Of a stretch of DNA of 34,707 bases, positions 1,577 to 21,100 are shown one piece after another. The position numbers were made by a program, and so were the translations under genes. The notes under the pieces were generated by a model, which worked only from the letters and a program-made list of their open reading frames with translations, was not told where the DNA came from and did not search any database. Each line of letters opens with the position of its first letter. Positions within the stretch are counted from its first letter, which is position 1. The DNA comes from Gammaproteobacteria bacterium (lineage in GTDB: Bacteria > Pseudomonadota > Gammaproteobacteria > Pseudomonadales > Azotimanducaceae): assembly GCA_009837725.1 (NCBI GenBank), contig VXSY01000218.1, positions 1-34,707 of the forward strand. The letters run 5' to 3'.

Positions 1577-1642
1577 GCTGGGGGCGGCGGCGCTCGCCCT
1601 CCTCGTGCGGCAGGAACGCCAAGGCATGACGGGTGCCAGCGA

Positions 1643-1808
1643 GAGGCTGGTTTGTTGGTTGCGTTGTTCGAGGCTTGCTCTTTTTGGCGTCGTCTGGAGC
1701 GCGGGTTGCGGTGGCCTTGGCCGGCTCCGCTGCGTGCGCGCCTTTCGGCACGCTTGGAGGGCGGGACGCCCTCCGTCCAGAGAGACCCTCGCATGGCAGG
1801 GGCTGTTG
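1643..1808 (+). repeat. Dispersed intergenic repeat, copy A
   Basis: This ~166-bp stretch matches, with scattered substitutions and small indels, the reverse complement of 19770-19933. Shared blocks include GAGGCTGGTTTGTTGG at the left end and CAGGGGCTGTTG at the right end. Inside is a hairpin, GGAGGGCG (1756-1763), loop GGA, CGCCCTCC (1767-1774). In copy B the stem is kept with a different loop. The copy lies between the 3' ends of der and the M23 gene. Reading frames across it are not preserved between copies, so it is probably non-coding. Confidence 0.85.
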
Positions 1809-1835
1809 GGTTCGGTGTTTTGCCGGCTAGCCCCA

Positions 1836-7479: not shown

Positions 7480-7798
7480 GCCCGAGGGCAAGAACAGATT
7501 TCCCAAGGCGTTGATTAGCAAACTTAGCGCCTCGAAGTCGAGTCAACACCCCAACGTGCCGGCCGGATGGTGCGGTCCCACGCGCAGCTCGGAGCGAGGG
7601 CCCGTCACGCTCTTCCCGTCGAAGGCGAAGCAACCAAGGGCCCGATGGTGCAACCAGCCCTCACCCCGCGAGACGGGCCTGGCGGCGGTTGGGAACGGCC
7701 CTGTTCCTTGGCGTCCAGCGACTCGGCCTCCCCAGCGGCTGGAAACTCCAAGGCCGGCCGTTGCCTTGGCAGAAGGCACTATGCGACAGGCAAGTGCC
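7480..7798. other. Convergent guaA/usp intergenic region
   Basis: This 319-nt non-coding gap lies between convergent genes. It contains a stem CCAAGGC (7748-7754) / GCCTTGG (7763-7769) with an 8-nt loop, and a second stem AGGCAC (7774-7779) / GTGCCT (7794-7799) touching the end of the usp gene. Neither is followed by a T-run, so they are weak terminator candidates only. It is not a copy of the 165-bp repeat. I recognise no gene in the rest. Confidence 0.4.
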
Positions 7799-19720: not shown

Positions 19721-19769
19721 GCAGGCTTCGCGAGCCCTCCTTGAACAAAGCCCGCCGCGAACGCGAAAG

Positions 19770-19933
19770 CAACAGCCCCTGCCGTGCGAGGGCCTCTCTG
19801 GACGGAGGGCGTGCCCTCCAAAGCGTGCCGAAGGCGCGCACGCAGCGGGCCGGCCAAAGCCACCGCAAACCCGCGTCCCAGACAGCGCCAACAAAGCGCC
19901 AACCTCAAACAACGCCACCAACAAACCAGCCTC
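19770..19933 (-). repeat. Dispersed intergenic repeat, copy B (inverted)
   Basis: This is the reverse complement of copy A (1643-1808), roughly 85% alike by eye over ~164 bp. The internal stem GGAGGGC / GCCCTCC is kept while its loop differs. It lies between the stops of the convergent leuA and CcsA-like genes, the same context as copy A. Confidence 0.85.
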
Positions 19934-19950
19934 GACCCGCACCGAGGAAC

Positions 19951-20748: not shown

Positions 20749-21100
20749 CGGAGTCAGGCGTCAGCGAACAAGATTGCAGGGCTTTGAGTTTCGCACAAGG
20801 ATGCAGCCGTGGCGACCGCTGGGCCGCCGAGCTAGCGCGCCCTTGCGGGCGCGTCGGCAGTTGCTTCGCAACTGCTGGCCTACGGGTTCGCTTACGCTCA
20901 CCCTTCGTGCTCGCGTTCGCTCGCAGCTACGGCGGCTGGGGCTTCGTCAACCGTCACCCTGGCTGCGCCCATCGAGGCAAGGAAGGCAGTGCTCGCTTCC
21001 CAGGCTGTCTACGGCTGATTCCGCCAGGCAAGCTGGTTTTCCGGGGCAGACGAAAGGCGTCCGGTATGATGCGCCGCTTCCGCCTGAGCACACCTTCACC
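20749..21100. other. Divergent intergenic with tandem hairpins, ffh leader
   Basis: This 352-nt non-coding region holds two adjacent perfect hairpins. CGCGCCC (20836-20842), loop TTGC, GGGCGCG (20847-20853). GCAGTTGC (20857-20864), loop TTC, GCAACTGC (20868-20875). A further short stem, GCGTTCGC-like, lies near 20910-20925. The second hairpin's left half and loop recur at 4137-4152. A TATGAT -10 box (21065-21070) precedes ffh. I see no gene here. Confidence 0.6.
21065..21070 (+). promoter_or_regulatory. Candidate ffh -10 box
   Basis: TATGAT (5 of 6) lies 30 bases before the ffh ATG; the transcript would start near 21077. No good -35 is visible at the right distance. Confidence 0.45.

Follow-up and report, generated by a model that had tools for sequence, protein, structure and literature searches.

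The closest described relatives of the repeat considered here are the REP/BIME elements associated with RAYT transposases (TnpA_REP), in which a GC-rich palindrome headed by a 5′ tetranucleotide recurs in many intergenic copies, with inverted pairs, tandem arrays and a single-copy RAYT gene beside the palindrome (PMC2817692, PMC8266576). TnpA_REP binds REP as a folded single strand, cleaves mainly at a CT next to it and is able to join strands, and for some of these enzymes the last two bases of the head matter most (PMC8266576). In REPINs, which are REP doublets that form hairpins, two inverted REPs and a spacer make up the likely mobile unit, and tandem arrays again occur (PMC3116915); in the GTAG- and CGTC-tagged REP superfamilies, structured spacers occur and placement is mostly between convergent and unidirectional genes (PMC3733652). 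The family described here, F1, resembles all of these and departs from each. Its 5′ tetranucleotide is conserved, but mostly reads GGAG outside F1 and GGAC in F1 instead of the usual GT(A/G)G; a second hairpin follows the palindrome, and F1 continues with a third hairpin and a long run of C/A-rich sequence; and REPs lie only on the upstream side of the RAYT gene, unlike the original description of a RAYT flanked by two inverted REPs (PMC2817692, PMC8266576). Unlike REPINs, F1 has a spacing of about 156–187 bp, and the two copies that introduced us to it retain one good REP each (PMC3116915), whereas in comparison with the tagged superfamilies neither tag is present and the spacer exceeds the usual 20–100 bp (PMC3733652). 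We read F1 as a new family, restricted to one clade, within a known class of selfish repeats, and not as a special insulator between converging genes.

The family came to attention through an earlier note on the window, that is, the whole 34,707-nt stretch of DNA analyzed, which reported a diverged, inverted pair of repeats lying between convergent genes and keeping a GC-rich stem while its loop varied. Each of these observations held. Copies A and B are homologous and inverted relative to each other, with 87% identity over 172 nt (BLAST, E = 5e-51) and an alignable length of about 170–220 bp; Pfam places copy A between der (+) and an M23 peptidase gene (−) and copy B between leuA (+) and a CcsA-like gene (−), both convergent gaps; and the GGAGGGC/GCCCTCC stem is kept around a TCC loop in A and a GT loop in B. 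The profile extends copy A to 1607–1825, somewhat wider than first given, and copy B to 19757–19936. The features are as follows.

1607..1825, minus strand: copy A, a type I member of composite repeat F1 (174.7 bits with the nhmmer profile; BLAST)
1775–1778, minus strand: head tetranucleotide of copy A, GGAC (sequence)
1756..1774, minus strand: H1 of copy A, REP palindrome GGAGGGCG-TCC-CGCCCTCC (sequence)
1736..1753, minus strand: H2 of copy A, second hairpin GCGTGCC-GAAA-GGCGCGC (fold, pair counts; simple REPs are laid out alike)
1708..1730, minus strand: H3 of copy A, GCGGAGCCGGCCAAGGCCACCGC (fold, pair counts)
1643..1707, minus strand: F1-specific C/A-rich extension of copy A (alignment)
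1590..1604, minus strand: second REP of copy A, degenerate and inverted, at its 3′ end (judged against copies whose 3′ REP is intact)
19757..19936, plus strand: copy B of F1, type I, without a 3′ inverted REP (nhmmer profile hit, 156.7 bits)
19800–19803, plus strand: head of copy B, GGAC (sequence)
19804..19819, plus strand: H1 of copy B, GGAGGGC-GT-GCCCTCC (sequence)
19823..19839, plus strand: H2 of copy B (sequence, fold)
19845..19866, plus strand: H3 of copy B (sequence)
19867..19928, plus strand: C/A-rich extension of copy B (alignment)

Read along its C/A-rich strand, F1 proceeds from an optional 5′ segment and the head through three hairpins, H1 (GGAGGGCG-TCC-CGCCCTCC), H2 (GCGTGCC-GAA-GGCGCGC) and H3 (GCGGAGCC..GGCC-AA-GGCC.ACCGC), into C/A-rich sequence of ~65 nt, and full copies are additionally closed by an inverted H1. 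The window repeat is thus longer than a plain REP, a composite of the REP with a C/A-rich extension of ~100 nt. Two end types exist: type I, to which the window copies belong, begins GAGCCCTCCTCGAACAAAGCCCGCCGGC, and type II begins AGCCTGTCGGACTTGGC, ends near GTCCCCTTGATG and has both REPs intact. Two intact REPs are absent from copies A and B.

The window's genome (G000; 4.66 Mb in 303 contigs) yielded 55 BLAST pieces and 56 matches to the F1 core pattern, against 0 matches to the reversed control pattern, so that the genome-wide count proposed in the earlier note gives at least 56 core copies rather than two. The true number should be higher still, because ~19 contig ends fall in or beside F1 and because tandem arrays with a 156–157-bp unit are present. 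Core copies also occur in the two closest sister species, 31 in G005 and 6 in G010, whose genome is 74% complete, and F1 was absent from the 13 other congeners and 42 other relatives among the 58 genomes searched in all. Judged by Der, which in G000 is 93% identical to its counterparts in G005 and G010 and 55–60% identical to those of other congeners, the three species are a tight group. Among GTDB contigs, the exact 24-mer core was found in metagenome-assembled genomes matching G005 and G010 and in one Ruegeria contig; viral contigs gave no match to it. The Ruegeria match (Ruegeria sp. Alg231-54, L079:1170-1193), a single exact 24-base hit outside the clade, is probably due to chance.

The palindrome itself is more abundant than F1. 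Exact GGAGGGCG-NNN-CGCCCTCC sites number 176 in G000, 241 in G005 and 49 in G010, and zero in the 13 other congeners. In 20 stretches without F1 it takes a simple form, consisting of a GGAG head, H1 and a short second hairpin, which stands singly or as an inverted pair at distances of 72, 82–84 or 112 bp; one direct pair lies 187 bp apart. Of the gaps holding these simple REPs, 15 are tandem, 4 are convergent and 1 is divergent; one site of this sample lies inside a called ORF. Two inverse REPs around a linker are common to the simple doublets and type II F1. Of 44 non-F1 copies, 31 have a GGAG head, and among 34 F1 heads GGAC occurs 19 times and GGAG 6 times. The stem of F1 is a REP palindrome.

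The earlier note proposed looking for a RAYT or other transposase with matching ends, and a RAYT gene with the F1 palindrome upstream of it is present. G000, G005 and G010 each have exactly one gene with a Y1_Tnp hit, assigned in all three above cut-off to NF047646 (REP-associated tyrosine transposase, RAYT) and matching the solved TnpA_REP structure 4er8 across the HxH and DYI regions (E = 4e-7). Upstream of this gene lies GGAGGGCGGGACGCCC in G000, which is the same palindrome, and G005 has two complete REPs there in opposite orientation, both with a GGAG head and a second hairpin; the chance of one REP near the RAYT gene, estimated from density, is ~3%. As the same palindrome adjoins its gene, we take the RAYT to be the probable cognate enzyme. 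No REP lies downstream, where the gene abuts the next ORF, and with REPs on one side of the RAYT only, we class the system as REP-like and RAYT-associated rather than as a textbook REPtron. The mere possession of a RAYT is not specific, since congeners without this REP also have RAYT sequences, as expected for other REP types; in one of these, G004, the RAYT scores 77.7 bits, just below cut-off, and is flanked by GTAG-headed palindromes. Counting against the RAYT model, G010 keeps the same palindrome despite a RAYT only 64% identical. As a separate observation, the RAYT of G000 is 98% identical to that of G005 and 64% to that of G010 (genes at L187, L188 and L189), unlike Der, which is 93% identical in both comparisons, suggesting replacement or fast change of the transposase.

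Taken together, these features make it likely that F1 is a composite built on a REP, non-autonomous and BIME/REPIN-like, presumably moved by the RAYT. The first two hairpins form the REP module, comprising a GGAG or GGAC head, the GGAGGGCG/CGCCCTCC palindrome and the second short hairpin; this module also exists alone or as inverted pairs and, in F1, is joined to H3 and the C/A-rich stretch. The single-copy RAYT, a Y1 HUH transposase, would recognize the folded single-stranded palindrome together with the head, cut beside the palindrome, and copy or move the segment into new intergenic sites; both the identity of the mover and the mode of movement are inferred. Since GGAG retains the final AG, cutting at CT may be expected here, and a GGAC head would presumably alter it. 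That F1 heads are mostly GGAC speaks against the model, in that type I copies, the window pair included, may be remnants or serve the enzyme poorly as substrates. The 156-bp tandem arrays could have arisen by unequal exchange between modules, and insertions may persist where they are harmless, at gene 3′ ends and in other intergenic DNA.

Mobility is visible in the sister species. For 36 G000 sites, the flanking DNA was located in G005 and G010. Nine sites hold F1 continuously in G000 and G005, and at three (L088, L091 and L099) this extends to all three species, whereas at ~16 sites anchored on both sides F1 is absent from G005. Where the gap with F1 in G000 measures 200–300 nt, the clearest empty sites retain 19 nt in G005 and 4 nt in G010 (L130), 5 nt (L101), 15 nt (L093, in G010), 24 nt (L083, in G010) and 30 nt (L094). 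With several orthologous sites empty in sister species, we conclude that F1 copies insert. L090, a candidate clean empty site in G005, was not counted, as an F1 remnant is kept there. These occupied and empty sites, along with the high copy number, the inverted REP pairs and the single RAYT, bear out the suggestion of the earlier note that the repeat might be a REP/BIME-like element or a miniature element. The latter deserves separate consideration as a MITE moved by a different transposase, for example of the DDE type, with the REP picked up as part of its sequence; in its favor are the long conserved unit and the clean occupied and empty sites, and the alignments of empty sites reveal no readable exact cleavage site and no RAYT-specific footprint. 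The same alignments, in which the exact ends are uncertain, show by eye neither target-site duplication nor terminal inverted repeats at the outer ends, the REP module spreads without the F1 extension too, and the sole Y1 transposase gene has this very REP beside it, all of which render such a MITE unlikely.

The two window gaps have their own history. Their orthologs in the sisters, between genes about 90% identical, are devoid of F1 and instead carry GTAG-headed palindromes and the repeat GGCAGTTCGC..GCGAACTGC. That both gaps have been occupied by two REP types is in keeping with permissive sites, although with two cases in view it is also conceivable that a hairpin of some sort is functionally required there. 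A more elaborate scenario, which we offer as a possibility on the doubtful side, is that the clade evolved a RAYT/REP system with a head changed from GTAG to GGAG and a two-hairpin recognition module, upon which type I F1, with its GGAC head, extra hairpin and C/A-rich arm, would be a second-order parasite that became its own replicating unit and re-colonized gaps held in the sisters by an older GTAG-REP. As a side observation, the identity of G000 and G005 varies from stretch to stretch, being 98–99% in some and about 91% in others (L195, L196 and L197 of G005), which suggests recombination between the lineages.

The position of both window copies raises the idea, put forward in the earlier note, of a bidirectional terminator or insulator selected between convergent genes. 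All classed F1 copies do lie in gaps or at contig edges, but the convergent preference is marginal. The gene-context sample comprised about 380–490 kb of stretches chosen around repeats and centered on F1, with genes called by a home-made codon-model caller whose 3′ ends are exact and starts approximate, so that convergent calls are the safest. Within it, the 38 gaps with F1 are 14 convergent, 16 tandem and 8 divergent; convergent gaps account for 14/38 F1 sites against 27/135 other gaps or, equivalently, F1 occupies 14/41 convergent and 24/132 other gaps (Fisher p = 0.05; length-weighted binomial p = 0.03). Published REPs, too, are found mostly between convergent and unidirectional genes (PMC3733652), and F1 placement therefore follows the ordinary REP pattern. 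The weak bias, together with GC-rich hairpins ~98% paired across copies and the hairpin repeats at both window sites in the sisters, is what a terminator or insulator can claim in its favor. It is nonetheless very unlikely: 24/38 sites are tandem or divergent (bias p = 0.03 to 0.05), no T-tract follows H1 and no terminator-like site is found there, F1 is missing from many orthologous gaps, and gaps of the same kind are filled by several unrelated repeat families.

The hairpins themselves are well paired across copies. Over 64 distinct copies, pairing amounts to 98% in the two H1 helices, 99% in H2 and 93% in the outer helix of H3. Double changes are few, GC to AU at the eighth pair of H1 in two copies and GC to AU in H3 in one; at columns 44/55 of H2 the pairs are UG in 39, CG in 11 and UA in 11. 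The covariation score of 0.052, against 0.045 in shuffles, was reached by 5/500 shuffles. A maintained hairpin agrees with both the pairing and this thin covariation, which fall short of strong proof; selection on the stem, as proposed in the earlier note, is suggested by the ~98% paired stems but not strongly shown, compensatory changes being scarce. An alternative H2 pairing, GCGTGC/GCACGC, was rejected, its columns 44/59 being mismatched in 13 copies versus 2 for the chosen pairing. Could F1 then be a structured RNA, either an sRNA or a cis-regulatory element, that multiplied by duplication? The covariation and the C/A-rich strand of copy A, which folds better than its shuffles (z = −3.25), lean that way, but copy B reaches only z = −1.23, double changes occupy just 3 cells, and F1 is variably present or absent between sisters and restricted to one clade. 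RNAalifold on a wide F1 alignment gave almost no consensus structure, and Rfam 15, applied to the window and five loci, returned 0 matches at the gathering threshold. We regard this explanation as highly improbable, and a composite element, presumably moved by the RAYT, as the reading to carry forward.

Seen as such, F1 lets REP turnover be followed as a natural experiment across three species, in which occupied sites can be paired with empty ones and one palindrome family numbers tens to hundreds of copies in three sisters while missing from all other congeners examined; its non-GTAG REP head makes the co-evolution of head and RAYT testable; and it cautions against taking every hairpin repeat found between convergent genes for a regulatory device.

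Other repeat families share the sampled DNA. F2, a two-hairpin repeat (GCGCGCCC..GGGCGCG, GGCAGTT..AACTGC), lies in a divergent gap of the window at 20831–20910 (+) and has 39 matches in the sampled stretches. F3, a third palindrome family with about 40 matches there, forms inverted pairs of GGAGGGAAGGCATTCTGCCTTCCC in G000 (L132:6068-6200 and L131:1925-2050). F4, another intergenic repeat of ~150 bp (CGAAGCCGAGCCAACACCAACGTGCCGGCC...GACGGGCC; window 7531–7681, +), is more convergent-biased than F1, with 6/8 classed copies in convergent gaps (Fisher p = 0.002, same sample).
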